NCBI GenBank assembly: GCA_011525685.1
Contig: WYBW01000094.1
Location: forward strand, 1 to 64,000
DNA: 64,000 nucleotides
Origin: Verrucomicrobiia bacterium
GTDB lineage: Bacteria; Verrucomicrobiota; Verrucomicrobiia; Limisphaerales; JADLHS01
Reading direction: 5' to 3'
Part shown: one piece after another, positions 22,366 through 53,071 of the stretch
Position numbering within the stretch: position 1 is the stretch's first letter
Layout: every line of letters starts with the position of its first letter
Made by a program: the position numbers and the translations under genes
The notes under the pieces: generated by a model
What the model was told of the DNA's origin: nothing
Seen by the model: only the letters and a program-made list of their open reading frames with translations
Database searches by the model: none

Positions 22366-22389
22366 TGCGGCAGGGCGGCTCGACCGACC

Positions 22390-22446
22390 GGGCCGGTTGG
22401 AAAACCGGCGATACATCCCGTAACGCCGACTTTCCTATCGGTTGAC
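22390..22446. repeat. Family B palindromes, copy after the pseudopilin gene
   Basis: GCCGGTTGGAAAACCGGC (22392-22409) is followed by CGATAC, then GTAACGCCGACTTTCCTATCGG. Both stems belong to the family also found at 24820, 31011, 31513, 41087 and 42241. It lies between two plus-strand genes. Confidence 0.75.
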
Positions 22447-24823: not shown

Positions 24824-24870
24824 CGCCGACTTTCCAGTCGGCGCGTGCGCCGGTTGGAAAACCGGCCTCG
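24819..24870. repeat. Family B palindromes overlapping the adenosyltransferase stop
   Basis: GTAACG border, stem GCCGACT-TTCC-AGTCGGC, then GCCGGTTGGAAAACCGGC (24849-24866). The TAA of the border is the stop codon of the upstream gene. Confidence 0.8.
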
Positions 24871-28936: not shown

Positions 28937-29593
28937 ATGAGCATCGTGCGATTACTCGCCGCCGGAAAAAGTCTGGTCGGCGTTCAAACCACCACCAGCC
29001 GCTATCGCGAGGACAAACGCGCCCGCCTCCCCAAATTCGGCTCCACCAAAAACCCCTTCGCCGCGCCGGCCAGCGCCACGCCCGCCGCCCCGGCGAAGCC
29101 CAAACCATCCCCCGCGCCAGCCACGCCACTTGTGCCAGCCACGACCCCCGCGCCCGTCGCACCCGCGCCCGTCGCACCCGCGCCCGTCGCAGCCGCGCCC
29201 GTCGCACCCGCGCCCGTCGCACCCGCGCCCGTCGCACCCGCGCGCGCCACCGACCCCGCGGCCAACCCCCTCCCGCCCGCGGCGCCCGCCGACACCCGCC
29301 TCCGCCGCGCCGTGCGCCGACTCCGCGAATGGTGCGTGGACGCCAACCCCCTGCCGCGCCTGGCCGGCCCGGCCCGCTCCGCCGCCACGCCCGCGCCCAG
29401 ACACACCGGCGCCCCCATCCAAAGCGAACTCACCCTCGACCACGTCCAAGTCCTCCGCAACGACCTCAGCGAAGCCGACCTCGAAATCGTCGTCGCCCGA
29501 CCCGCGCGCCGCGCCGACCAAGACACACCAGAAGAACCCAACACCTGGAGCCGCCTGGCCACCCGCATCTTCGTCCGCCCCGAAACCGATTAA
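28937..29593 (+). CDS. Proline/alanine-rich protein between mraZ and rsmH
   Basis: Protein of 218 residues. The conserved-looking N-terminus MSIVRLLAAGKSLVGV is followed by RYREDKRARLPKFGSTKNPF. A Pro-Ala linker of about 75 residues contains six perfect or near-perfect PAPVA units. The C-terminal third (RLRRAVRRLREWCVDANPLPRL to LDHVQVLRNDLSEADLEIVVARP) looks globular. I do not know the family; position only five bases after mraZ suggests a dcw-linked role in verrucomicrobia. No signal peptide or transmembrane helix. Codons here switch to extreme C-ending usage. Confidence 0.65.
   Translation: MSIVRLLAAGKSLVGVQTTTSRYREDKRARLPKFGSTKNPFAAPASATPAAPAKPKPSPAPATPLVPATTPAPVAPAPVAPAPVAAAPVAPAPVAPAPVAPARATDPAANPLPPAAPADTRLRRAVRRLREWCVDANPLPRLAGPARSAATPAPRHTGAPIQSELTLDHVQVLRNDLSEADLEIVVARPARRADQDTPEEPNTWSRLATRIFVRPETD
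29147..29236 (+). repeat. 15-base tandem repeat encoding PAPVA
   Basis: Six head-to-tail units of CCCGCGCCCGTCGCA; the fourth unit has one change. The unit is five codons, so length changes keep frame. It forms the middle of the linker in the mraZ-rsmH interval protein. Confidence 0.92.
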
Positions 29594-29626
29594 CCGGCGC
29601 ACACCGCGAACCCATGCACACCCCAC

Positions 29627-30667
29627 ATGAACCCCCCGCCTGGCACCCAGCAACCTCCCCCGTCACCGCCAGACCCGGGCCACTACCACCACCAACCCGT
29701 CCTCCTGGCCGAAGTCCTCGAAGCCCTGCGCCCGCGGCCCGGCGGACACTATGCCGACGGCACCCTGGGCGGCGCCGGCCATGCCGCCGCCATCCTCGAA
29801 GCCAGCTCCCCCACCGGCTGGCTCTGGGGCTGCGACCGCGACCCCGACGCCCTCACCGCCGCCCGCGCCCGACTTGCCCCCTACGCCGGCCGCTATGAAA
29901 TCCGCCAACTCAACTACGCCGACCTCGACACCTGGCTCGCCCCCGCCACCTGTGACGGCATCCTCCTGGACCTGGGCGTCAGCTCGCCCCAACTCGACCG
30001 CCCCGACCGCGGCTTCAGCTTCCGGCACGACGGCCCCCTCGACATGCGCATGGACCCACGACAAACCCTGACCGCCGCCGACCTGGTCAACCACACCAGC
30101 CCCGACGAACTCGCCCGACTCCTCTGGGAACTCGGCGGCGAACGCCACTCCCGACGCCTCGCCCGCGCCATCGTCCACCACCGCCAACGCGCCCCCTTCA
30201 CCACCACCCGACAACTCGCCCGCCTCATTGAAAAAATCCTGCCGCGCAAAGGCCGCACCCATCCGGCCACCCAAACCTTTCAAGCCCTTCGCCTCGCCGT
30301 GAACGACGAACTCCCCTCCCTCCAACGCGGACTCGACGCCGCCCTCAAACTCCTCAAACCCGGCGGCCGCCTCGCCCTCATCACCTTTCACTCCCTCGAA
30401 CACCGCCTCGTCAAAAACTTCGGGCGCGCCCGGACGCAGGACTACACGTCCCCTGGAGGAATGGACGTTCCGCAGTGGCGATCCCCGCGCCCGCCCTGTG
30501 GAGTACTCGAGACCCACCTGCCCCGCGCAGGCGAAACCGCTACTCCACAGGGCAAACCCCAACTCCGCTGGCTCCAACGCAAAGCCATCAAACCCGGCCC
30601 CGCCGAACTCGCCGCCAACCCCCGCGCCCGCAGCGCCCAACTCCGCGTCCTGGAAAAAAACCCATGA
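29627..30667 (+). CDS. rsmH: 16S rRNA m4C1402 methyltransferase RsmH (MraW)
   Basis: Enzyme of 346 residues that N4-methylates 16S C1402 with SAM. Motifs: HHQPVLLAEVLEAL, YADGTLGGAGHAAAIL, DGILLDLGVSSPQLD, GFSFRHDGPLDMRMD, TFQALRLAVNDEL and GGRLALITFHSLEHRLVK. Near the C-terminus residues 290-309 (PCGVLETHLPRAGETATPQG) interrupt an otherwise family-like end. They are encoded by a palindromic element at 30494-30552. The proline-rich first 18 residues may be dispensable. The stop overlaps ftsL by ATGA. Confidence 0.93.
   Translation: MNPPPGTQQPPPSPPDPGHYHHQPVLLAEVLEALRPRPGGHYADGTLGGAGHAAAILEASSPTGWLWGCDRDPDALTAARARLAPYAGRYEIRQLNYADLDTWLAPATCDGILLDLGVSSPQLDRPDRGFSFRHDGPLDMRMDPRQTLTAADLVNHTSPDELARLLWELGGERHSRRLARAIVHHRQRAPFTTTRQLARLIEKILPRKGRTHPATQTFQALRLAVNDELPSLQRGLDAALKLLKPGGRLALITFHSLEHRLVKNFGRARTQDYTSPGGMDVPQWRSPRPPCGVLETHLPRAGETATPQGKPQLRWLQRKAIKPGPAELAANPRARSAQLRVLEKNP
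30494..30552. repeat. Palindromic element inserted in frame in rsmH
   Basis: A 59-base element with perfect 12-base inverted ends, CCCTGTGGAGTA and TACTCCACAGGG. A nested hairpin CCTGC-CCCGC-GCAGG lies inside. It keeps the reading frame and adds about 20 residues. The same ends flank an insert in murB at 40353-40450. Confidence 0.82.
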
Positions 30668-31203
30668 CCAAAAACCGCAAACACCACACCGCCGCCCTCC
30701 GCTTTGGTCCGGCCCTCAAAGCCTTCCTCCTCTGCGCCCTCATCGGCAGCGCCGGCGTCGGCTACGTCTGGCAAAAAAGCCAGATCGAACAACTCGCCCG
30801 CCACATCAAAAACCGCGAACTCCGCCTCGCCGAACTCCAATTTCAAAACGACAAAGCCCGCGTCCAACTCGGCCGCCTCCGCTCCCCACTCGCCCTCGAA
30901 CAACGCATCCGCGACCTCCACCTCGGCCTCGCCAAACCCCTCGAAACCCAAATCTGGCGACTCCCGGAACCCCCGGACCAACCCCAACCCGACCCCGCCC
31001 ACGCCACACCCACCTTCCAGTCCACCCTCCGCAGCACTGCTCCGGAGGACAAGCCGGCCCGAACCGCGGAGCATTCCACCGAACCCGCGCCCCGCACTGA
31101 AATCAACTTAGCCCACGGAGCGGGCGCCCCCTTTGAAAAAACCCGCATCACCGCCTGGCTCAAACCCAACTCCGCACCCGCCCCACACCCTGGCCGCCCA
31201 TGA
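30664..31203 (+). CDS. ftsL: FtsL-like division protein
   Basis: Protein of 179 residues in the ftsL position. A basic cytosolic N-terminus is followed by one transmembrane helix (ALKAFLLCALIGSAGVGYVW, about 16-35). A predicted coiled coil (KSQIEQLARHIKNRELRLAELQFQ onward) has the leucine spacing of FtsL. A proline-rich C-terminal tail is encoded partly by a family B repeat (31011-31064) and ends inside another direct repeat. FtsL works with FtsQ/FtsB to activate FtsW-FtsI. The start overlaps the rsmH stop. Assignment rests on position and topology, since FtsL has little sequence conservation. Confidence 0.78.
   Translation: MTKNRKHHTAALRFGPALKAFLLCALIGSAGVGYVWQKSQIEQLARHIKNRELRLAELQFQNDKARVQLGRLRSPLALEQRIRDLHLGLAKPLETQIWRLPEPPDQPQPDPAHATPTFQSTLRSTAPEDKPARTAEHSTEPAPRTEINLAHGAGAPFEKTRITAWLKPNSAPAPHPGRP
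31011..31064. repeat. Family B element inside the ftsL coding region
   Basis: Its reverse complement closely matches 41118-41170, including TCCTCCG, GCAG, TGCGGAGGGTGGACTGGAA and the GGTTCGGGCC edge. Here it encodes part of the FtsL tail in frame. Confidence 0.75.
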
Positions 31204-31503
31204 CCCCCCGCGCCCACAACTTACGCCGCCGCCCGTGTCGCCATTGGTTGAGGAACCGATGGCCGCGGGCGGACGGCGACCCTTTGCCACCCGCGCCCGC
31301 CGCAAAACCCCGTATCGCGGCGTGGCCGCCCCGCAGCTTTACACCGGCGACACACACCGCCACCCCGACCTGCGAGCCGGCCCGAACCCCGCACCGCTCC
31401 ACACCCTGGCCGCCCATGACCCCCCGCACCCGGCACAACCTTTCGCCGCCGCCCGTGTCGCCATTGGTTGAGGAACCGATGGCCACGGGCGGACGGCGCT
31501 CCT
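31185..31503. repeat. Pair of ~100-base direct repeats (period 216) across the ftsL stop
   Basis: 31185-31285 and 31401-31503 are nearly identical. Each contains the hairpin CCATTGGTT-GAGG-AACCGATGG. The ftsL stop codon lies in the first copy. No protein is convincing in the intervening bases. Confidence 0.85.
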
Positions 31504-31663
31504 CCGCCGCCCGAGCCGGTTGGAAAACCGGCGCTACAAACCGCCACGCCGACTTTCCAGTCCACCCTCCGCAAAACTGCTACGCCCGTCCTCCGCACCA
31601 CCCCTGCTATGGAGCATGGAGACGACGGGGACACTCACCCACGGACCCGACCCCTTGACCCGC
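31204..31663. other. Repeat-filled spacer between ftsL and ftsI
   Basis: 460 bases without a credible gene although all frames are fairly open because of extreme C-richness. It holds the second direct-repeat copy, and at 31513-31597 a family B element with GCCGGTTGGAAAACCGGC (31515-31532). No clear promoter or ribosome site for ftsI is visible. Confidence 0.6.
31513..31597. repeat. Family B element in the ftsL-ftsI spacer
   Basis: GCCGGTTGGAAAACCGGC then CGCTAC, followed by CGCCGACTTTCCAGTC and a CCCTCCGC...TAC...CCTCCGC part. It contains the same modules as 41087-41178, in another order. Confidence 0.75.
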
Positions 31664-33583
31664 ATGGCCAAACGACTCCAACTCCGACGCCTCCTCCTCC
31701 TGGCCCTGCTCCTGGGCGCCGCCTTCCTCGGCCTGGGCTACCGCCTCGTGGACCTCCAAATCCTCCGCCACGACGAACTCCACGCCAAAGCCCTCCGCAA
31801 CACCCTCTACCAAACCACCCTCGAACCCCGCCGCGGCGACATCCTCGACGCCAACGGCCACATCCTGGCCACCAGCTCCTTCGTCAAAACCATCTGCGCC
31901 GACCCCTCCCTCATCGGCCCGCACCATGCCCAGGTGGCCCGCCTCCTCGCCCCGCTCCTCCAGCTCCCCGAAGCCGACCTGGCCGAACGCCTTCAACCCC
32001 GCCTCCGCCAGAACGAGCACGGCCACATCCTCACCAACCGCTACGTCGTCCTCAAACGCAAGGTCAAACCCGATACCTGGCTGGAAATCCGACACGCCCT
32101 CAGCAACCTTCACCTCGGCCTCGACGAAAAATCCCTCTCCAAAGCCCAACGCGCCGCCCTCCACGACCTCCGCTCCAAGGCCATCTTTGCCGACCCCCTG
32201 GACGATCAGCTCCGCGAATACCCCAACAAATCCCTCGCCGCCCATGTCCTCGGCCACGTCGGCTTGTCCGAGCGTCTCCTCCAAGGCTCGCCCATCCTCG
32301 AAACCTCCGGCAAGGACGGCCTCGAACTCTCCCTCAACTCCAAACTCGCCGGCGTCCACGGCTGGCGCTCCTCCGAAACCGACCGCCGCAGACGTGAACA
32401 ACTCACCTGGCGCGCCCAGCACGTTGAACCCCGCGACGGTTACAACGTGGTCCTGACCATTGATTCGGTCATCCAACACTTCCTGGAATCCGCTTTGGCC
32501 GAGGGGATGGAAAAGCATGACCCGGTGAGCATCTCGGGCTTGGTTGTCCGCCCGCGCACCGGCGAAATCCTGGCCATGGCCAACCTCCCCACGTTCGACC
32601 CCAACCAGCCCGGCTCGAACCCGGACGCCCGCCGCAACCGCATCATCACCGACGTGATGGAACCGGGGTCCACCTTCAAGATTGTCGTCGTCTCCGGCGC
32701 CTTGAACGACCAATTGGTTCGCCTTTCCGATCAGTTCGACTGTGAACACGGCCATTTCGCTTTTGGCGGCCGGGTCCTCCACGACCACGGTTCGTACGGT
32801 TCGCTCTCCGTGGAACGAATCATTACCAAGTCCTCCAACATCGGTGCGGCCAAGATCGGCATCAAACTGGGCAACCAGCGTTTGTACGACTACGTATGCA
32901 ACTTCGGATTCGGCGCGCGCACTGGCATCCCTTTGCCGGGCGAAGTCAAGGGCATCGTCCATGAAGTCAAGGACTGGAGCAAAGTCAGCATCGCGCAAAT
33001 CCCCATGGGCCACGGCATCGCCGTCACGCGCCTGCAGATGGCCATGGCCATGTGCGCCATCGCCAACGACGGCTGGCTGATGCGGCCGATGCTGGTGCAG
33101 CGGCTGGAGGATCGCGAAGGCCGCGTGGTTGCGCGCTACACCCCGCAGCGCGTGCGGCAGGTTATCAGCGCTCAAGCGGCCCGCCAGACCGTGGCCGCAC
33201 TCAAGACCGTGGTTTCCTCCGAGGGCACCGCGCCGAAGGCCGCCCTCGAACACTACAGCGTGGCGGGCAAGACCGGCACAGCCCAGAAGGCCGGTGTGGG
33301 TGGTTACATGCCCGGGAAGTACATCTCGTCCTTCATCGGCTTTTTCCCAGCCGACAATCCCGAACTTTGCATCACAATCGTCATGGATGAACCGCGTCAG
33401 GGTTACTACGGTGGGCAAACCGCCGCGCCCCTCTTCCGCCAGGTTGCCGAACGTGCCGCCAATTATCTGAACATCCGTCCCGATCAAATCGAAATCAAAC
33501 AGGCGGACAACCAACCCGCCACCGCCGGCCCGAGCACCCGCAATCCTGGCACTGTCGCCGCGAGGTCACCGGCCAACCCATGA
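31664..33583 (+). CDS. ftsI: Division transpeptidase FtsI (PBP3)
   Basis: Class B penicillin-binding protein of 639 residues that crosslinks septal peptidoglycan. An N-terminal transmembrane helix (LLLLALLLGAAFLGLGYRLVD) precedes a dimerisation domain beginning RGDILDANG. Transpeptidase motifs: S336-TFK with the acylated serine, S390-SN, and K536-TG. No PASTA domains. The ATG at 31664 directly precedes the basic RLQLRR before the helix; ATGs at 31616 and 31520 fall in repeat DNA. Codon usage shifts from C-ending to mixed near 32.4 kb within this gene. Confidence 0.94.
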   Translation: MAKRLQLRRLLLLALLLGAAFLGLGYRLVDLQILRHDELHAKALRNTLYQTTLEPRRGDILDANGHILATSSFVKTICADPSLIGPHHAQVARLLAPLLQLPEADLAERLQPRLRQNEHGHILTNRYVVLKRKVKPDTWLEIRHALSNLHLGLDEKSLSKAQRAALHDLRSKAIFADPLDDQLREYPNKSLAAHVLGHVGLSERLLQGSPILETSGKDGLELSLNSKLAGVHGWRSSETDRRRREQLTWRAQHVEPRDGYNVVLTIDSVIQHFLESALAEGMEKHDPVSISGLVVRPRTGEILAMANLPTFDPNQPGSNPDARRNRIITDVMEPGSTFKIVVVSGALNDQLVRLSDQFDCEHGHFAFGGRVLHDHGSYGSLSVERIITKSSNIGAAKIGIKLGNQRLYDYVCNFGFGARTGIPLPGEVKGIVHEVKDWSKVSIAQIPMGHGIAVTRLQMAMAMCAIANDGWLMRPMLVQRLEDREGRVVARYTPQRVRQVISAQAARQTVAALKTVVSSEGTAPKAALEHYSVAGKTGTAQKAGVGGYMPGKYISSFIGFFPADNPELCITIVMDEPRQGYYGGQTAAPLFRQVAERAANYLNIRPDQIEIKQADNQPATAGPSTRNPGTVAARSPANP

Positions 33584-33587
33584 AACC

Positions 33588-33809
33588 ATGAACGCCCAGA
33601 ACGTCATCTCGCACCGAATGTTCGTTGCCGCGTTGACTCACGAAGCGAGCCAGACGCGCCCGTCGCTCGAGCAAAACACCGCCGCGCCGGCCAGCCCCGT
33701 TCGCTCTCCGGCGACGCGCGCCAACCACGCCCCGCCGCTGACCGGCGTGGTCGCCCAGCAATTGCTGCTCCTGGCCGATGGAAGCGAATGGCTGCCCGTA
33801 CGAACTTGA
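33588..33809 (+). CDS. Small protein of unknown function after ftsI
   Basis: A 73-residue frame starting four bases after the ftsI stop. Composition is Ala/Pro/Thr-rich without a transmembrane helix; the end (LTGVVAQQLLLLADGSEWLPVRT) is the most protein-like part. It occupies the place where murE usually lies but shows no ligase motifs. It may be real because of the tight spacing, or chance. Confidence 0.4.
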   Translation: MNAQNVISHRMFVAALTHEASQTRPSLEQNTAAPASPVRSPATRANHAPPLTGVVAQQLLLLADGSEWLPVRT

Positions 33810-33837
33810 GCGCGCCGCCGCGGCGCCGTAATCAGAA

Positions 33838-35259
33838 GTGTCAGCAGTGGAAGCCCGAAACTTAAATTTTATCCTGACCGCCTGCGATGGCGAACTCTGG
33901 CAAGGTTCGCCCGCCACCAACGTCACCGGCGTCAGCACCGATTCACGCCAGGCGCGCCCCGGCGAACTCTTCGTCGCCATCCCGGGCGAACGATTTGACG
34001 GGCACCATTTCCTCGAGGCCGCAGCCAGCCGCGGTGTGGCCGCAGTGCTCCTCGAGCGCGCTCGCCGGCCCGAGCGCCTGCCTCAATGCGCCGTCATCAG
34101 CGTCGTCAACACCCGTCGCGCCCTCGGCTGCCTCGCCGCTGCCTACCGCCAGCAACTTACTCCCGAAACCATCGCCGTCGCCGGCTCCAACGGCAAGACC
34201 ACAACCAAAGAACTCATCGCTGCCGTCCTTCGACAAAAGCTCGCCACGCTCTCGAGTGAGGCAAGCTTCAACAACGACATTGGCGTTCCGCTCACCCTTT
34301 TGCGACTCGATCCCAGCCATCAAGCCGCCGTCCTCGAAGCTGGCACCAACCATCCCGGCGAGCTCGCACCCCTGGTGAAAATGATCCAGCCCCGCCACGG
34401 CGTCATCACCAACATCGGCCGCGAGCACCTCGAGTTCTTCGGCGACCTTGCCGGTGTTGCTGACGAAGAAGGCTGGCTGGCGGAATTGCTGCCCTCTGAC
34501 GGACGACTCTTTCTCAATGGCGACGACTCTTGGTCCGATCAATTGGCGCGAAGAGCGCGCGCCACAGTCGTGAGAGTTGGTTTTCAACCTGGCAACGACT
34601 GGCGTGTCCGCCGCGTGCGCCTCGACAAACAAGGCGCTACTTTCTCGGTGAACGCACCCCGCGTGGCTTACGATGGCGATTACCGTATCAACCTCCTCGG
34701 CCGACACCAGGTCGCCAACGCCCTTTTCGCCCTCGCGCTCGGTGCGGAACTCGGTTTGGACCGCGCCCAAATTCAACGCGGCCTGGCCGAGTGTCAGCCC
34801 GCCAAAATGCGACTCCAACTCTGGGAGATCGGCGGCGTCCGCATCCTCGACGACACCTACAACGCCAACGCCGACTCCATGATCGCCGCCTTGCGCGTCC
34901 TCAAAGCTCTCCCCTGCAAAGGCCGCCGCGTTGCGGTCCTTGGCGACATGGCCGAACTGGGCGACCACAGCGAAGCCGCCCACGCCGAAGTGGGCCGGCA
35001 CGCCGCCGAATTGGGCATTGGCCAGCTCTTCGCCGTGGGCCAGCACGCCGCCACCCTCGCCCGCGGCGCGCGCGAGGCGGGTCTGGCGCGCGTCATCGAA
35101 ATGGCGGACGTGGAAACCGCCGCCGCTGCCGTCAAGACCTTCGCCAAACCGGGCGATTTGATCCTGTTGAAAGCTTCGCGCGCCACGCGTCTCGAGCGCA
35201 TCGGCACCGTGTTGCGCGGCAATGGAAATGGAAAACAACTTGAATGTTCTACTACCTGA
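33838..35259 (+). CDS. murF: UDP-MurNAc-tripeptide D-Ala-D-Ala ligase MurF
   Basis: Mur ligase of 473 residues starting at GTG. It adds D-Ala-D-Ala to UDP-MurNAc-tripeptide in the cytosol. N-terminal domain with VSTDSRQARPGELFVAI; ATP-binding loop AGSNGKTTTKELI; EASFNNDIGVPLTLL; the central-domain EAGTNHPGEL and NIGREHLEFFG; and C-terminal ILDDTYNANADSMIAAL. The D-Ala-D-Ala signature NNxxGxP (NNDIGVP) marks MurF rather than MurE. The end overlaps mraY by 16 bases. Confidence 0.95.
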   Translation: MSAVEARNLNFILTACDGELWQGSPATNVTGVSTDSRQARPGELFVAIPGERFDGHHFLEAAASRGVAAVLLERARRPERLPQCAVISVVNTRRALGCLAAAYRQQLTPETIAVAGSNGKTTTKELIAAVLRQKLATLSSEASFNNDIGVPLTLLRLDPSHQAAVLEAGTNHPGELAPLVKMIQPRHGVITNIGREHLEFFGDLAGVADEEGWLAELLPSDGRLFLNGDDSWSDQLARRARATVVRVGFQPGNDWRVRRVRLDKQGATFSVNAPRVAYDGDYRINLLGRHQVANALFALALGAELGLDRAQIQRGLAECQPAKMRLQLWEIGGVRILDDTYNANADSMIAALRVLKALPCKGRRVAVLGDMAELGDHSEAAHAEVGRHAAELGIGQLFAVGQHAATLARGAREAGLARVIEMADVETAAAAVKTFAKPGDLILLKASRATRLERIGTVLRGNGNGKQLECSTT

Positions 35260-36443
35260 GTCATGCACTGCTCGAGTGGTCGGAAGGCACTGGTTGGGCC
35301 GAGTACCTCTCGCCCCTGCGCCTGTTCCGCTACATCACCGTGCGCAGCGCCGGCGCCGCCCTTACCGCCCTGGCCCTCTCCTGGTGGCTCGGTCCAAAAG
35401 TCATTGGCTGGCTCAAGCTGCTCAAGTTTGGCCAGGTTTACGCCGACAAAGCCGAGCTGGCCGGCGGTCTGGCCGCGCGTGTCTTGAGCAAAAAGGGCAC
35501 TCCCACCATGGGCGGCCTGCTCATCATCGCCGCCCTCAACCTTTCCACCCTGCTCTGGGCGCAGTGGAACACTCTCATTCAGCTTACGTTGCTGGCCGTT
35601 CTGGTCCTCACCGCGCTCGGGTTTTACGACGATTACGCCAAGGTGGTCCAGCAGTCCGGCGGCGGGACCAAGCCGCACGTCAAACTCTGGGTCCAGTTCG
35701 CCCTGGCCGCGTTCGTCGCGGTTTATCTCTGGCGCTTGCCGGTCTTGAGTTTCCTCCGGGGCGGGCCGCCCTTGCCCGCCCCCGGCGAGCCGCCCCTGGT
35801 TTCCAATCTCATCTCCGTGCTCATGTTACCTTTCTACAAACAGCCCGTCCTGGCCGGCGCGCTGGTCGGCCTGGTGCTCACGGTCCTGGCCATCGTGGGC
35901 ATGTCCAATGCCGTCAACCTGGCCGATGGCTTGGACGGCCTGGCCATCGGGTTGACGGTGATTGTGGCGTTCGTGTTTCTGGTGTTTTCGTATCTGGCCG
36001 GCAATGTCAAGGCGGCGGAGTATCTCCAGATCCCGTTCGTGCCCGGCGCGGGCGAGTTGACGGTGTTTTGCGCCGCGCTCATCGGCGCGGGCCTGGGTTT
36101 TCTCTGGTTCAATTGTCATCCGGCCCAGGTGTTCATGGGCGATACGGGGTCGCTGGCCTTGGGCGGCGCGCTGGCCCTGGTGGCGGTGTTGATTCATCAG
36201 CCGTTGGTCCTGGTGTTGGCCGGCGGGGTGTTCGTGCTGGAGGCGGCTTCGGTGCTGCTGCAGCGCGGTTGGTTTCGTTTCACCAAGCGCCGCTCGGGCA
36301 CGGGTCGGCGGCTTTTGCTCATGGCGCCGTTGCATCATCATTTCGAGAAGTTGGGTTGGTACGAGTCGCAGGTGGTGATGCGGTTTTATATTCTCGGGGT
36401 GTTGTTCGCCGTGCTGGCGCTGGCGACGTTGAAGATTCGATGA
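35244..36443 (+). CDS. mraY: Phospho-MurNAc-pentapeptide translocase MraY
   Basis: Integral membrane enzyme of 399 residues with about ten helices. It transfers phospho-MurNAc-pentapeptide to undecaprenyl phosphate, making lipid I. Motifs: KKGTPTMGGLLI, ALGFYDDYAKV (catalytic aspartates), SNAVNLADGLDGLAIG, NCHPAQVFMGDTGSLALGG and PLHHHFEKLG. The start overlaps murF. Composition becomes markedly G-rich in its last third. Confidence 0.97.
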   Translation: MFYYLSHALLEWSEGTGWAEYLSPLRLFRYITVRSAGAALTALALSWWLGPKVIGWLKLLKFGQVYADKAELAGGLAARVLSKKGTPTMGGLLIIAALNLSTLLWAQWNTLIQLTLLAVLVLTALGFYDDYAKVVQQSGGGTKPHVKLWVQFALAAFVAVYLWRLPVLSFLRGGPPLPAPGEPPLVSNLISVLMLPFYKQPVLAGALVGLVLTVLAIVGMSNAVNLADGLDGLAIGLTVIVAFVFLVFSYLAGNVKAAEYLQIPFVPGAGELTVFCAALIGAGLGFLWFNCHPAQVFMGDTGSLALGGALALVAVLIHQPLVLVLAGGVFVLEAASVLLQRGWFRFTKRRSGTGRRLLLMAPLHHHFEKLGWYESQVVMRFYILGVLFAVLALATLKIR

Positions 36444-36926
36444 GTTTTCCTCTTTGCATGGTGGGCGCGGGGTGGTGGCCCGCTGCGGCTCGTGGTGAAT
36501 GGGGGCGCTGCGGGTCACAGACCCGCGGTCCAAGGGTGGGTGGGGTGCTTGCTGGTGCGGGCTCGGCTGCCGTTGGTGCGGGCAGCGCGGGCTCGGCTGC
36601 CGTTGGTGCGGGCGATCGTGGTTCGTTGTTTTTTACTGCTTGCGTGGTGGGCGCGGGGTGGTTAACTGGTGGCGGCCGTTGGGTTTTGGTCCGCTGTTTT
36701 TTCGTTTCGATCCAGCTCGTCTTTGTCTTGGCGGGTCGGCGCTTGGTGGCGGGTGGAAATCAACGGGTTGGGGTGCGAGGGGCGGCGACCCCTACCGGGA
36801 CGGTGGGTGTGTGGGTGTGTGGGTTTGTGGGTGTGTGGGTGACGGCGTTGTGTGAGGCGGGCGCTGGGTCACTGGTTTTAACTTTGCCTCTTGGTAATGG
36901 GCGCGGGTTCGCGCCAACTGAAACTT
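36444..36926. other. G-rich, repeat-bearing spacer at the murD position
   Basis: 483 bases with no recognisable gene; murD would normally lie here. It contains TGCrTGGTGGGCGCGGGGTG twice (near 36456 and 36648), a tandem 30-base repeat at 36557-36616, a GCGGGTCACAGACCCGC hairpin near 36509 and GTGTGGGT repeats at 36802-36840. Open frames are low-complexity Gly/Trp/Val. Confidence 0.6.
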
Positions 36927-37607
36927 ATGAATAGTCCAAGTCCTCTCGTTCCTCAGGGCTCGTTTCTCGAGCAGAAGTCTTCGGGTCGGTCGCGCGTGAA
37001 GGTGGCGTTTTTCGTCGTGGTGGGCGTGCATGTGGTGGCGATCTTGGCGGCGTTGTTGGCGCAGGGTTGTCGCCGCGAGGAGGCGCCGCCGCCGGAGCTG
37101 GGTCAACCCACGCCGCCGGTGTTGTCGGAGCAGTTGTTGCCGGTGGAGTCGAATCCGCCGCCGGTGGTGGTGGAGTCGCCGCCGGTGTTGCCGCCGCCGG
37201 AGCCCACGTCGCCGCCGCCGCCGCCGGTGGCGTCGGATTATACGATTGCGCGCGGGGATACGTTTTCGACGATTGCGCGGAAGTTCGGGGTCTCGGTGAA
37301 GGCGATTCAGGAGGCGAATCCGGGGGTGGATCCGTTGCGGTTGCAGATCGGGGATAAGATCAAGATTCCGCCGCCGGCGGTGGCGCCGACGGGTTCGCCG
37401 CCGGGGGGGTCGGGGGTGGCGCCGAGTGGTGAGCAGGTTTACACGGTGAAGTCGGGGGATAATTTGACGAGGATCGCGGAGCAGTTCGGGACGACGGTGC
37501 CGGCGTTGCGGTCGGCGAATAGTCTGACGAGTGACCGCATCAAGGTGGGGCAGAAGTTGAAGATTCCGGTGAAGGCGGCGGCGCCGGCGGGCGGGTCGCC
37601 GCCTTGA
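36927..37607 (+). CDS. Membrane-anchored protein with two LysM domains
   Basis: Protein of 226 residues: a cytosolic basic start, one transmembrane helix (about 25-47, ending LLAQGC), a proline-rich linker (51-104), then LysM domains at about 105-148 and 172-214 with YTIARGDTFSTIARKFGVS and YTVKSGDNLTRIAEQFGTT. LysM binds GlcNAc in peptidoglycan. Its place between mraY and ftsW suggests a septal wall-binding role. LAQGC could alternatively be read as a lipobox. It ends 83 bases before ftsW. Confidence 0.85.
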   Translation: MNSPSPLVPQGSFLEQKSSGRSRVKVAFFVVVGVHVVAILAALLAQGCRREEAPPPELGQPTPPVLSEQLLPVESNPPPVVVESPPVLPPPEPTSPPPPPVASDYTIARGDTFSTIARKFGVSVKAIQEANPGVDPLRLQIGDKIKIPPPAVAPTGSPPGGSGVAPSGEQVYTVKSGDNLTRIAEQFGTTVPALRSANSLTSDRIKVGQKLKIPVKAAAPAGGSPP

Positions 37608-37690
37608 GGGGCGGGCGGGGGGTTGTCCGCGGGCGGGCGGTGATGCTGCGTGTGTGTGTTTGGCGGCGGGTGGATTGGTTGGTTGGCGAA

Positions 37691-38815
37691 ATGAAATTCA
37701 CGGTCACGACTCTGGCGTTTTGCGTGGCGGCTTTGTTGTCGCTGGGCATGGTGATGCTTTATAGCGCGAGCATGACGCAGGTGGGGGCGAAGTATCTGGT
37801 GTCGCAGTTGGTGTGGTGCGGGCTGGGGCTGGCGGGGTGCGTGGCGGCGGCGCGGAGTGATTACCGGTGGCTGGGGCGGGTGGCGGTGCCGGTGTACGGG
37901 GCGGCGGTGGTGTTGCTGGTGCTGGTGCTGGTGATGGGGGTGAAGGTGAACGGAGCGCGGCGGTGGCTGGAGTTGGGGGTGCGGTTTCAGCCGTCGGAGT
38001 TTGCGAAGCTGGCGGTGATTGTGTTGCTGGCCTGGTACGGGGCGCGGCACGCGCGGGTGATGCACACGTTCTGGCGCGGCGTGATCGTGCCGGGACTGGC
38101 GGCGGCCGTGGTGATGGGGTTGATCTTCCTGGAGCCGGACGTGGGCACGACCATCCTGCTTGGGGCGGTGACGTGCATCATGCTGTTGATCGCGGGCATC
38201 CGCTGGCGATACTTGTTGCCCCCGGCGCTCATCGCCGCGGCCGCCATCGGATTGTTCATTTATCACAACCCGACCCGGTCGGATCGCATCTACTCGTGGT
38301 TGCATCTCGAAGAAACCCGCAAAGGCACTGGCCTTCAGGTTTATGAAGCGATCCTGGCTTTCGGGTCGGGCGGCGTGGACGGTCTGGGCTTGGGCAACAG
38401 CCGGCAGAAACGCGGTTTCATTCCCTATCACCACACGGACTTCATCATGCCGGTGGTCGGCGAAGAACTGGGCGTGGTTGCCAGTCTCGGCGTGGTGGCG
38501 GGATTTGTGCTCATCGTGTTCTGCGGAGTGCGAATCGCCATGCGCGCCCGGGATGATTTCGGGACCTTGTTGGCGGCGGGGATTTCCTTCCTGATCGGCT
38601 TGCAGGCCTTTGTCAACATGGCGGTGGTGACCAATGTGCTGCCCAACAAAGGTCTTCCCTTGCCGTTCATCAGTCGCGGCGGCTCGAACCTGCTGGTCAT
38701 GCTCGTGTGCGTGGGATTGCTGTTCAGCATCGCCCGGCAGGCGCGCGCACCGGAAGCCCGGTCGGCCAATCCGTTTGCCCGTTCGGATGAATTGCCTTCA
38801 CCGCAGCCGACATGA
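37691..38815 (+). CDS. ftsW: Septal peptidoglycan polymerase FtsW
   Basis: SEDS-family glycosyltransferase of 374 residues with about ten transmembrane helices; it polymerises lipid II with FtsI. Diagnostic stretches: NGARRWLELGVRFQPSEFAK, FLEPDVGTTILL, AFGSGGVDGLGLGNSRQK, HHTDFIMPVVGEELG and VLPNKGLPLPFISRGGSNL. The ATG at 37691 gives the usual N-terminal helix; an upstream frame is an Arg/Val-rich artefact of G-rich DNA. The end overlaps murG by ATGA. Confidence 0.95.
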   Translation: MKFTVTTLAFCVAALLSLGMVMLYSASMTQVGAKYLVSQLVWCGLGLAGCVAAARSDYRWLGRVAVPVYGAAVVLLVLVLVMGVKVNGARRWLELGVRFQPSEFAKLAVIVLLAWYGARHARVMHTFWRGVIVPGLAAAVVMGLIFLEPDVGTTILLGAVTCIMLLIAGIRWRYLLPPALIAAAAIGLFIYHNPTRSDRIYSWLHLEETRKGTGLQVYEAILAFGSGGVDGLGLGNSRQKRGFIPYHHTDFIMPVVGEELGVVASLGVVAGFVLIVFCGVRIAMRARDDFGTLLAAGISFLIGLQAFVNMAVVTNVLPNKGLPLPFISRGGSNLLVMLVCVGLLFSIARQARAPEARSANPFARSDELPSPQPT

Positions 38816-40026
38816 CACAATCACCCCGTTCATCTCCCTACATCGCGATTGCCTGCGGCGGAACGGGCGGACATCTCTTCCCGGGCCTTGCGGTGGCGGA
38901 CCAACTGAACCAGCGACAATGCAAGGTGGCTCTGCTTGTGTCGCCGAAGGGAGTGGATCAACGCGCTGTGCAGTCCGCGCGTGGCATGGAGATCGTCACC
39001 CTGCCGGCCGTCGCGTTGCAACAGGGCAGCCGGCTGGCTTTCGTGCGCGGGTGCTGGCAATCCTGGCGCGCCGCGCGCCAGGGATTTCGCGCGCATCCGC
39101 CCCAAGCGGTGGTGGCGATGGGCGGCTTCACCAGCGCGCCGCCGGTCCTGGCCGGCCGCTGCGCGGGTGCGCGGACTTTTCTGCACGAGTCCAACAGCCT
39201 CCCCGGTCGGGCCAATCGCTGGCTCGCCCGGTTTGTGGACCAGGCATTCGTCGGGTTCGCCGCGGCGGCCCCGCGATTGCGCGCGCGGCAGACCACCGTT
39301 ACGGGCACGCCGGTGCGGCCGGAGTTCCAACCGGGCGACGCCGCTGTGTGTCGCGCCAAACTCGGCCTTGATCCGGCGAGACCCGTCCTGCTGGTCACGG
39401 GTGGTAGCCAGGGGGCCGCCGGGTTGAACGATTTGATCCTGAGGGCTCTGCCGTTGCTGGCCCAACGCGCGGCCCACTGGCAATGGTTGCATCTGTCCGG
39501 CCCGGGAGATTTTGCGAAGGTGAAGCAGGCCTATGCAGAAGCTGGTGTCCCGGCTCATGTCCATCCCTTTCTGGCTGAAATGCACCTGGCGCTTGGCGCG
39601 GCCACAGCGGTGGTCAGCCGGGCCGGCGCGTCCTCCTTGGCGGAAATCGCCGCCATGCGCGCTGCGTCGTTGCTGGTGCCCTTTCCGCACGCGGCGGACA
39701 ATCACCAGTTTCACAACGCGCGTGCCTTCGTGGAATCGGGCGCGGCAATGTTGCTTGAACAGGCGGATGGCACTCCGGAAAAGGTGGCCGACCTGCTGGT
39801 GCAACTGGTCGAGGACCAGACCACGCGGGAAGCAATGCGAAGCGCCCTCGGTCAGTGGCACTCGCCCAAGGCGGCGGAGCAAATCGCCGAAGCAATTTTG
39901 CGAGCCGTGGCCCGTGCTGCCGCTCACCCTCAGACTACGGCCGGTGTTTCACGGAAAGCCGCCGGGCCGGAAGCGACACGCCCCGTTGATCCTCGTGCCC
40001 GGGTGGCAGAACCCGAAGCCGTATGA
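38812..40026 (+). CDS. murG: Lipid II-forming GlcNAc transferase MurG
   Basis: GT28 enzyme of 404 residues adding GlcNAc to lipid I on the inner membrane face. Motifs: ACGGTGGHLFPGLAVADQL, MGGFTSAPPVLAG, HESNSLPGRANR, VTGGSQGAAGLND and SRAGASSLAEIAAM with PHAADNHQFHNA. The last about 35 residues (after AILRAVARAA) are a Pro/Ala/Arg-rich tail not typical of MurG. The stop overlaps the murB ATG. The murC gene that usually lies next is absent. Confidence 0.95.
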   Translation: MTQSPRSSPYIAIACGGTGGHLFPGLAVADQLNQRQCKVALLVSPKGVDQRAVQSARGMEIVTLPAVALQQGSRLAFVRGCWQSWRAARQGFRAHPPQAVVAMGGFTSAPPVLAGRCAGARTFLHESNSLPGRANRWLARFVDQAFVGFAAAAPRLRARQTTVTGTPVRPEFQPGDAAVCRAKLGLDPARPVLLVTGGSQGAAGLNDLILRALPLLAQRAAHWQWLHLSGPGDFAKVKQAYAEAGVPAHVHPFLAEMHLALGAATAVVSRAGASSLAEIAAMRAASLLVPFPHAADNHQFHNARAFVESGAAMLLEQADGTPEKVADLLVQLVEDQTTREAMRSALGQWHSPKAAEQIAEAILRAVARAAAHPQTTAGVSRKAAGPEATRPVDPRARVAEPEAV

Positions 40027-41090
40027 TGTCCGAGCTGTCCATTCTGAATGAGCCGGGACGCGTCGAGGAACACTTCGCCGACGATCTGGCGCGGCAACTC
40101 TCGCCGGAGGCGGTGGTGCGCCGGCACGAACCGCTGGACCGCCGGACGACCTTGCGGGTGGGCGGACCGGCGGACCTGTTCGTCGTCCCGGCAAACGAGT
40201 CAGACCTCGCCTCCACACTCGCGTTCTGTCGCGAACGAGCCTTGCAGTTTTTTGTGTTGGGGCGCGGTTCGAACCTGCTGGTGCGCGACGGCGGATTTCG
40301 CGGCGTCGTCATTTCTCTGGCCCACCCGCATTTCAGCCGCATCACCGTCGAGCCCCGTGGAGTAACACCTGGGACTTGCGCTGCGGACCTGCCCTCTGGA
40401 GCAACGTCGCCCTTGGGCGTTCCGGACGATCCCGTCTCTACTCCACAGGGGCGATTGCGTTGCGGGGCCGGAGCCAAACTCAAACAGGTGGCCATCGAGG
40501 CCCGCCGCCACGGCCTCAGCGGTGTCGAGTTTCTTGAAGGCATCCCCGGCAGCGTCGGCGGCGCCCTCCGCATGAACGCCGGCGCCATGGGCTCCTGGAC
40601 TTTCAACGTCGTCGAATCCGTGCGCGTCATGGATCGCGATGGGCGCGTCTCGGTGTTGCCGGCCGGCGACATTTCAGTCGAGTACCGGCATTGTCCGTTG
40701 TTCAAGTCGCACCTGGCTTTGGAAGCTGTGTTTCGTTGCCGGCCCGCGCCGCGCGACGAAATCGAGCAGCGCATGAACACTTTCAGTCAGAAGCGGTGGG
40801 CGTCGCAGCCCGCTGCGCCCAGCGCCGGTTGTCTGTTCAAGAATCCGCCCTCCATTCCTGCCGGCAAACTCATTGATGAGCTGGGCCTCAAGGGCATGCG
40901 CATCGGCGGCGCGGTCGTCTCCGCCGAGCACGGCAATTTCATCGTCAACACCGGCTCGGCCACCGCGCGGGATGTGCTGGAGTTGATTGCCATCATTCAG
41001 GCCCGCGCCCGCGATGAACGCGGTGTGGTGCTGGAGACTGAAGTGGAAATCATCGGTGAATCGGAAACACTCCAACTGGGCGGGATGTAG
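40023..41090 (+). CDS. murB: UDP-N-acetylenolpyruvoylglucosamine reductase MurB
   Basis: FAD enzyme of 355 residues reducing UDP-GlcNAc-enolpyruvate to UDP-MurNAc. Motifs: TTLRVGGPADLFV, VLGRGSNLLV, EFLEGIPGSVGGALRMNAGA and SAGCLFKNP. The last has cysteine where E. coli has the catalytic serine, a replacement that I recall from other MurB enzymes. About 32 residues (111-143) between RITVE and RLRCGAG are extra and encoded by a palindromic element. The TAG stop is in the border of the family B repeat at 41087. Confidence 0.94.
   Translation: MMSELSILNEPGRVEEHFADDLARQLSPEAVVRRHEPLDRRTTLRVGGPADLFVVPANESDLASTLAFCRERALQFFVLGRGSNLLVRDGGFRGVVISLAHPHFSRITVEPRGVTPGTCAADLPSGATSPLGVPDDPVSTPQGRLRCGAGAKLKQVAIEARRHGLSGVEFLEGIPGSVGGALRMNAGAMGSWTFNVVESVRVMDRDGRVSVLPAGDISVEYRHCPLFKSHLALEAVFRCRPAPRDEIEQRMNTFSQKRWASQPAAPSAGCLFKNPPSIPAGKLIDELGLKGMRIGGAVVSAEHGNFIVNTGSATARDVLELIAIIQARARDERGVVLETEVEIIGESETLQLGGM
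40353..40450. repeat. Palindromic element inserted in frame in murB
   Basis: About 98 bases bounded by CCCCGTGGAGTA and TACTCCACAGGGG, which are inverted copies apart from one base. The ends match those of the rsmH element. The insert keeps the frame and adds about 32 residues at a site between conserved MurB blocks. Confidence 0.8.
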
Positions 41091-41178
41091 CGCCGGTTTT
41101 CCAACCGGCTTGGTGGTTCGGGCCGACCCGTCCTCCGTAGCAGGACTGCGGAGGGTGGACTGGAAAGTCAGCGTTACG
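41087..41178. repeat. Family B element between murB and ddl
   Basis: Starts GTAGCGCCGGTTTTCCAACC, then TCCTCCGTAGCAGGACTGCGGAGG, then TGGACTGGAAAGTCAGCG and GTTACG. It fills most of the 126-base murB-ddl gap and supplies the murB stop codon. It is the most complete copy of the family. Confidence 0.82.
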
Positions 41179-41216
41179 TGGGCCGGGTGGAAAGCGGGCG
41201 TTAGCAGTGTGTTGGT

Positions 41217-42170
41217 ATGGATGACAAATTGAAGATCACGGTCATGCTGGGTGGACCTGGCGCCGAACGCGAGGTGTCCTTGCGTTCGGGCGCGGCCGTC
41301 GCTGCGGCCTTGCGTTCATGCGGTCACTCGGTTTTCGAGTTGGACCCCAGGCCGCGCGCCTGGCGATTACCGCCCGGAACAGATGTCGTTTTTCTCGCGC
41401 TGCACGGTGCTTACGGGGAGGACGGCGCGGTTCAGGCGGAGTTGGAGGACATGGGCGTGCCTTACACGGGTTGCGACGCTCAGGCCAGCCGCATCGGGTT
41501 CGACAAAGTCTTGACCAAGCAGCGTTGTCTGGCGGCGGGCGTCCCCACGGCGCGCTTTACGGTGGTCACTGCCGCAGGCTCGCCCTGGCCGCGTGGTTGG
41601 AATCCGCCGGTGGTGCTCAAGCCGGTGCGCCAGGGCTCGAGTGTGGGCCTCCAGTTCGTCGAGCGCGTGGCGGATTGGCCCGGCGCGCTGGCCGAGTCGT
41701 TGCGGCACGGTGCAGAGGTCTTGGTCGAGGAGAGAATCCAAGGCCGCGAGTGTACGGTGGGGATTCTGGACGGGGTGGCGTTGCCGCTGGTGGAGGTGCG
41801 CCCCAAGTCCGGCATCTATGATTACCGGACCAAATACACCGAGGGGGCATCGGAGTATCTGTGCCCCGCGCCGTTCGACGCGGCGACGGCGCAGCGGATT
41901 GCGCAGGCGGGTCTGGCGGCGTTCCAGGCAATCGGCGGCCGGGATTATGGCCGTGTGGACGTGATGGTGAAAGCGACTGGTGACCCGGTGGTGCTGGAGG
42001 TCAATACGTTGCCGGGGATGACGGAGACGAGTTTGTTGCCCATGGCCGCCGCCGCCGCCGGCCTCGGTTTTGCCGAGTTGTGCGAGCGGATGGTGGCGCT
42101 GGCGCTGCGGCGCAGGGTCGGGCCGTTGTCGTTGGGGCGCGCGAGTGCTTCGAGCGCGGAAGCGGCCTGA
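41217..42170 (+). CDS. ddl: D-alanine-D-alanine ligase
   Basis: ATP-grasp enzyme of 317 residues making D-Ala-D-Ala for MurF. Motifs: MLGGPGAEREVSLRSG, ALHGAYGEDGAVQAELE, PYTGCDAQASRIGFDK, KPVRQGSSVGLQFV, EERIQGRECTVGIL, and the metal-binding VLEVNTLPGMTETSLLP. ATG at 41217 just after the family B element. The C-terminal 25 residues are Ala/Arg/Ser-rich. Confidence 0.95.
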   Translation: MDDKLKITVMLGGPGAEREVSLRSGAAVAAALRSCGHSVFELDPRPRAWRLPPGTDVVFLALHGAYGEDGAVQAELEDMGVPYTGCDAQASRIGFDKVLTKQRCLAAGVPTARFTVVTAAGSPWPRGWNPPVVLKPVRQGSSVGLQFVERVADWPGALAESLRHGAEVLVEERIQGRECTVGILDGVALPLVEVRPKSGIYDYRTKYTEGASEYLCPAPFDAATAQRIAQAGLAAFQAIGGRDYGRVDVMVKATGDPVVLEVNTLPGMTETSLLPMAAAAAGLGFAELCERMVALALRRRVGPLSLGRASASSAEAA

Positions 42171-52768: not shown

Positions 52769-53071
52769 GGCGCGCAGTAAAACAAGTCATTCCGCCGTTG
52801 GCAAACGCATCCCTGCCGGTGAAGGCGTGATGCTGAATCCTTGGCGACTTTGGCGCGCGGCGTTCACGCCGCTTCCGCGCCGGCCTGCAAAACCTGCGTT
52901 GAAGCGGCCTGGCGGCCGCGCGCCCATGAGTTCTTCGTCTCAACCAACGAGGGAACGCTTTGAGCAGGTGGTAAGGATTCAGGGGGTGATCGGCTCATCT
53001 CAAGCGCTTGGAGGGTCAATGGGTACGACGGGGTGTGACTCGTCGCGCTGCGAGAACTCCGCCCCTTTCGC
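52769..53071. other. Spacer containing palindromic repeat A
   Basis: 303 bases upstream of the antiporter start and beyond the yggU stop. Apart from the repeat at 52839-52911 I see no gene, terminator or clear promoter. Confidence 0.5.
52839..52911. repeat. Dispersed palindromic repeat A, copy 2
   Basis: Reverse-complement match of 121-193 over 73 bases. The hairpin core GCGGCG-TTCA-CGCCGC is at 52857-52872. Confidence 0.75.

Follow-up and report, generated by a model that had tools for sequence, protein, structure and literature searches.

Palindromes that encode protein segments are known best from the Rickettsiales; most insertions there are common to several species and are therefore old. 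The palindromic elements of Rickettsia and Wolbachia lie in frame within unrelated conserved genes, are translated with them, and are also found between genes (PMC3767692, PMC2229807); one enzyme carrying an element of this type is active (PMC2229807). Intragenic GTAG REPs that encode 20–30 residues have been reported in Opitutus terrae (Di Nocera 2013, PMC3733652). Y1 transposases, in turn, recognise hairpins and cut beside short targets picked by a guide sequence (PMC8266576, PMC6006769).

The element described here came to light in a 64,000-nt stretch of DNA from a bacterium of the order Limisphaerales (contig WYBW01000094.1, positions 1 to 64,000), hereafter the window. It is very probably a non-autonomous mobile palindromic element that is translated through as a tolerated peptide. 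Its insertions are missing in genomes of the same genus, so filled and empty sites can be compared directly, and its carriers are conserved and mostly essential (rsmH, murB, ftsA, ilvC, hemA). Together with a constant insertion length and a visible tolerated frame, these properties make two questions testable: the movement of the element and the acceptance of inserted peptides by proteins.

An inverted repeat within rsmH

The rsmH gene of the window (29627..30667, + strand), encoding 16S rRNA methyltransferase H (346 residues; Pfam Methyltransf_5), contains a perfect 13-bp inverted repeat, GCCCTGTGGAGTA / TACTCCACAGGGC, with 35 nt between the arms. The 61-bp element (30493..30553) is built from a left arm (30493..30505, +), a core whose sequence is unrelated to most other copies (30506..30540, +) and a right arm (30541..30553, +). 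The preliminary description had correctly recognised the palindrome and the 35 enclosed bases, but it gave the arms 12 bases and placed the ends at 30494–30552, one base too far inward on each side. As a single strand, the element folds far more strongly than shuffled sequences (RNA z −5.7, DNA z −4.9). It adds a net 63 nt, or 21 codons, to rsmH, at residues ~290–310 of the protein, and reads P-C-G-V...T-P-Q-G.

RsmH is present in 37 of 38 related genomes, and the protein of the window was aligned with 29 relatives, the nearest in the same genus and the most distant in the same order. The 21 extra residues, located between the PR and PQLRW segments, occur in the window's RsmH only, and all 29 relatives are continuous at this point. 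The alignment rules out that the segment is a normal part of verrucomicrobial RsmH; the earlier proposal of an in-frame insertion of about 20 residues, which conservation of the segment in relatives would have disproved, is supported by a single clean insert. At the DNA level, G001, from the same genus, reads CCGCGCACG-CCCGAG; the corresponding DNA of the window reads CCGCGCCCG, then 63 additional nt, then CCCCAA. Rfam gave no match across 29500–41500, even at E 1, and a phage collection gave no match.

A different 17-residue insertion (KTDSVLSFDDFSVAPQ) is seen in the RsmH C-terminus of L049 (G002), a few residues downstream of the site, with no palindrome by eye. The ORF upstream of rsmH contains tandem 15-bp units (29133–29267) that encode an Ala-Pro-Val linker.

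Copies in the same genome and an older composite repeat

A genome-wide search for arm pairs was suggested in the preliminary description; the element belongs to a dispersed family and has a second coding insertion in the window, in murB. The arm CCCTGTGGAGTA has 46 matches in the genome at one mismatch or fewer, against 13 for a reversed control pattern. A covariance model places copies at ~58 positions, a lower bound because only 150 of the 5137 candidates were scored. The majority of these copies share a longer composite, in which the 61-bp unit, with a conserved core, lies between the hairpins of a two-hairpin repeat, GTAACGCCGGTTTTCCAACCGGC...GCCGACTGGAAAGTCGGCGTTAC. Five stand-alone copies with unrelated cores are found in this genome (rsmH, murB and three others), and its intergenic copies vary in length from 59 to 63 bp. 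Since the two-hairpin repeat also occurs 33 times in the genome with a short spacer, mostly 5–6 nt, replacing the unit, an older intergenic repeat probably received the 61-bp unit and then multiplied. One such empty form of the composite is intergenic, at 24831..24857 (− strand).

Copies of the older repeat (GCCGGTTTTCCAACCGGC / GCCGACTGGAAAGTCGGC and variants) are located in the window at 24831–24857, 22379–22435, 31505–31584 and 41079–41190, some of them in the ftsL-ftsI region and also just past murB. Between the ftsL-like and ftsI-like genes, a 90-bp direct duplication (31220–31309 / 31440–31529; 87 percent) contains a TTGGTTGAGGAACCGATGGC hairpin. A 74-bp inverted pair with a CGCGGAAGCGGCGTGAACGCCGCGCGCCA hairpin (121–194 / 52838–52911, 95 percent complementary) probably represents another repeat family.

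The murB gene (40023..41090, + strand) has an in-frame insertion of ~31 net residues that is missing from all aligned relatives (~29). The insertion begins with a partial copy that has lost its right part and retains CCCCGTGGAGTA followed by 26 nt of core (40353..40390, +); this is joined directly to a complete second copy (40391..40451, +) in the same reading frame, P-S-G-A...T-P-Q-G. A second copy begins 26 nt into the first core both at this junction (window 40353–40451) and in a histidine kinase gene (L193:1462–1600, G270); this position may be a preferred site.

Distribution and carrier genes

Among 320 genomes of the order, 11 matched the unit pattern with its fixed 35-nt spacing, and the control pattern had 0 matches. 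Some 35 stand-alone copies were collected in other Limisphaerales, and genome G036 has 15–16 copies. An exact-pattern scan of 84,980 species genomes, a collection that may omit the window's own and very near genomes, returned ten records, seven from Limisphaerales-type genomes and three from Desulfobacterales bins. The latter (L170:585–644, L171:4593–4653, L175:361–421) have the same arms around a 34–35-nt core, and the cores of L171 and L175 are alike at 25 of 35 positions; transfer between phyla and binning error are both possible sources of these copies.

Carrier genes were identified by Pfam scans of the open frames running through the copies. In G036, the carriers are ftsA, ilvC, hemA, dsbD, feoB, a thiopurine methyltransferase, a phosphomannose isomerase, a cytochrome c protein, a glycosyltransferase and a VWA protein. 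Elsewhere, copies lie in genes for an SNF2 protein (G005), a sulfatase (G178), a 4-alpha-glucanotransferase and a radical SAM/SPASM protein (G264), a PAS histidine kinase (G270), and in an hdrA-like gene with two copies (G183). The IlvC insertion appears as a 21-residue gap against solved KARI (ketol-acid reductoisomerase) structures, positioned between two Pfam domains. Essential proteins apparently tolerate ~21 added amino acids per insertion.

Filled and empty sites

Nine filled sites could be paired with an empty counterpart: ftsA, feoB, ilvC, the genes of the cytochrome c protein, isomerase and methyltransferase, the VWA gene, one further gene of the dcw region, and rsmH. The empty reference was G087, a zero-copy genome of the same genus as G036, for eight genes and G001 for rsmH. 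The net insertion is 63 nt at 9 of 9 pairs (for the VWA pair from the alignment and not from the anchor method), a constancy that is partly selected because all nine pairs lie in ORFs, where selection removes lengths that are not multiples of 3. From these pairs, the insertions are established as younger than the split of the same-genus genomes.

None of the nine pairs has a target duplication. The two flanking bases are mostly YY on one side and RR on the other (TT/GA, TC/AA, TC/GA, CC/GA, CC/AA), and the flank is mostly CYY (CTC, CTT, CCC), again with no duplication and with breakpoints ambiguous by a few bases. In the best parse, 61 bp and a further 2 nt lie between CYY and G, with ends uncertain by a few bases because the compared sites differ by 15–25 percent. 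In the histidine kinase gene, where one copy lies inside another, deleting 63 nt restores an outer element whose core is exactly 35 nt long. Both copies in the hdrA-like gene have 38-nt cores, three nt more, so that the frame is again kept.

Conserved arms, variable cores and the translated frame

The unit can be written as GCCCYGTGGRRTA-N35-TAYYCCACRGGGC plus 2 nt, 63 nt in total. Across 41 stand-alone copies, per-column conservation reaches 92–94 percent in the arms, a value partly ascertained by the near-consensus arms required in collecting the copies, and 41 percent in the cores. The arms covary: 24 changes are double-sided, where shuffles give 5.7, and pair 11/51 is GC in 28 copies, AU in 13 and broken in 0. 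Two processes could produce symmetric arm change of this kind: mobilisation may select for hairpins that are intact, or the palindrome may be corrected by template switching.

The cores are hypervariable in sequence and nearly fixed in length at 35 nt. They have no fold of their own (mean z −0.10 against shuffles over the 41 stand-alone copies), so the nested hairpin noted in the preliminary description survives, weakly, for the rsmH copy only and is ruled out as a family feature. The cores of L164 and L219 are alike at 29 of 35 positions, and their arms differ symmetrically (GTGGAGTA and GTGGAATA), which indicates that cores are inherited and drift while the arms change together. Because several cores are related to each other, drift by descent would be the simpler reading, compared with freshly captured host DNA.

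When the 82 strand-elements are read in each frame, f1 is open in 63 and f2 in 75, whereas the third frame is open in 13 and has stops in most copies. The f2 peptide, P-R/C-G-V...T-P-R/Q-G, is used by ~17 family-supported genes and the f1 peptide, A-P-W-S...Y-S-T-G, by 2–3 (P about 0.001–0.004). This bias suggests either that the peptide is made and f1 is less tolerated, or that the insertion phase is specific.

How the element may move, and other readings

At the level of sequence, we demonstrate a dispersed family with empty sites, a constant net 63 nt, no duplication, an open frame, covarying arms and a copy nested in a copy. A mobile element with these properties would land beside a short flank, mostly CYY, without duplicating its target. 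As 63 nt make 21 codons and almost every copy has a frame without stops, the host gene would remain open and be translated straight through, and the carrier protein would gain a P-R/C-G-V-(~12 residues)-T-P-R/Q-G segment. The carrier proteins would presumably still function, and the inserted peptide would have no function of its own. A further reading, less likely than not, is that the hairpin has become adapted to harmless residence in genes. With its length kept at 63 nt (21 codons), a frame nearly free of stops on each strand and a core that may take almost any sequence, it would spread in coding DNA, that of essential genes included, and supply housekeeping proteins with 21-residue segments of variable sequence.

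The DNA hairpin may be recognised and moved in trans by a single-stranded-DNA enzyme, for which a Y1/HUH transposase of the IS200/IS605-RAYT type is our tentative candidate. It is only the most likely of several because no element copy adjoins Y1 genes. At 30 Y1 transposase loci in eight genomes, no arm was found nearby at 12/12 or 11/12, with scattered 10/12 matches only; these loci lend no support to a Y1 association, and no partner transposase could be tied to the element. Y1 genes occur in all eight genomes searched and are equally many in genomes without the element.

One alternative is a conventional MITE, moved as double-stranded DNA by a DDE transposase that leaves a short target duplication. 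The element resembles one in its short terminal inverted repeats, its lack of coding capacity and of autonomy, and its multiple copies; AC also flanks one nested copy at either end, readable as a 2-bp duplication. The flanking bases elsewhere are no direct repeats (TT/GA, TC/GA, CC/AA and so on), the nine pairs lack a target-site duplication, and the termini are without the TA motif usual in bacterial MITEs (PMC2229807), which together make a MITE improbable. Membership in the GTAG-type REP families, which are known from Opitutus terrae, with movement by a RAYT, would account for a palindromic, intragenic repeat encoding 20–30 residues in Verrucomicrobia, and the C|T cleavage of REPs is compatible with the CTC flank (PMC8266576). 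We consider it unlikely, since the arms pair over the 35-nt core as one long hairpin that has GTGG inside the stem and no free GTAG/GTGG foot, zero copies lie beside Y1 genes, and the exact pattern is restricted, among the 84,980 species genomes, to Limisphaerales-type and Desulfobacterales records.

Two further readings concern the fate of the insert once it is in place. Conserved, covarying arms around drifting cores might mean that the hairpin or peptide is retained for a function, in mRNA regulation or as a useful protein loop; yet the carrier genes are unrelated, the sites differ between genomes, each insertion is missing in close relatives, intergenic copies exist, and conserved arms would also be seen if mobility were limited to intact hairpins. 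Retention for function is therefore very unlikely. The strong mRNA hairpin could also let the ribosome skip the insert, or let it be removed from RNA, as with mobile bypassing elements or introns. No coding site has lost its frame (net 63 nt; 38-nt cores in hdrA), and the two open frames are used unequally, neither of which would be needed if the RNA were skipped, and this reading is hardly credible. A mobile hairpin translated as part of its host gene remains the preferred account.

Comparison with known systems

A search of the open-access literature found no description of the 61-bp family. The family and its constant 63-nt insertion appear to be new, intragenic palindromes as a kind being already known from Opitutus terrae; the remark in the preliminary description that nothing similar was known in Verrucomicrobia needs correction, because intragenic GTAG repeats had been reported there (Di Nocera et al. 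2013, PMC3733652).

The coding palindromes of Nematomorpha mitochondria (PMC6649704) are likewise perfect inverted repeats within genes; their arms encode conserved protein parts, whereas the Limisphaerales element is wholly an added segment. The Opitutus terrae GTAG REPs share with it the phylum, an intragenic palindromic nature, 20–30 encoded residues and, sometimes, the presence of two copies per gene. They are 20–40-bp hairpins, often beside RAYT genes, in which the GTAG foot is free and the loop in most cases short; compared with GTAG/CGTC REPs, whose GTAG or CGTC foot is unpaired, the Limisphaerales element has one 13–16-bp stem, a 35-nt core and GTGG paired in the stem. The IS200/IS605 and TnpA-REP systems (Y1 HUH) act on hairpins and insert next to a short target, on the 3' side of a fixed one in IS200/IS605-type elements; the palindrome and its mostly CYY flank would be compatible with such a mode of insertion. 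The IS200/IS605 family also transposes without target duplication.

The closest likeness in behaviour is to the Rickettsia palindromic elements (RPE-1 to RPE-7) and those of Wolbachia, which are inserted in frame in unrelated genes and leave the frame intact. The analogy drawn in the preliminary description therefore holds, but not as membership: RPEs are described as 100–150 bp long (84 bp for some gene-borne RPE-4) and as confined to Rickettsiales, whereas the Limisphaerales element has 61 bp, with a net 63 nt, and an exact pattern found only in Limisphaerales-type and Desulfobacterales genomes among the 84,980. It further differs from RPEs in its fixed core length, its hypervariable core sequence and insertions that are missing in same-genus genomes. 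The element acts like a Rickettsia palindromic element but, by size and distribution, belongs to a different family.
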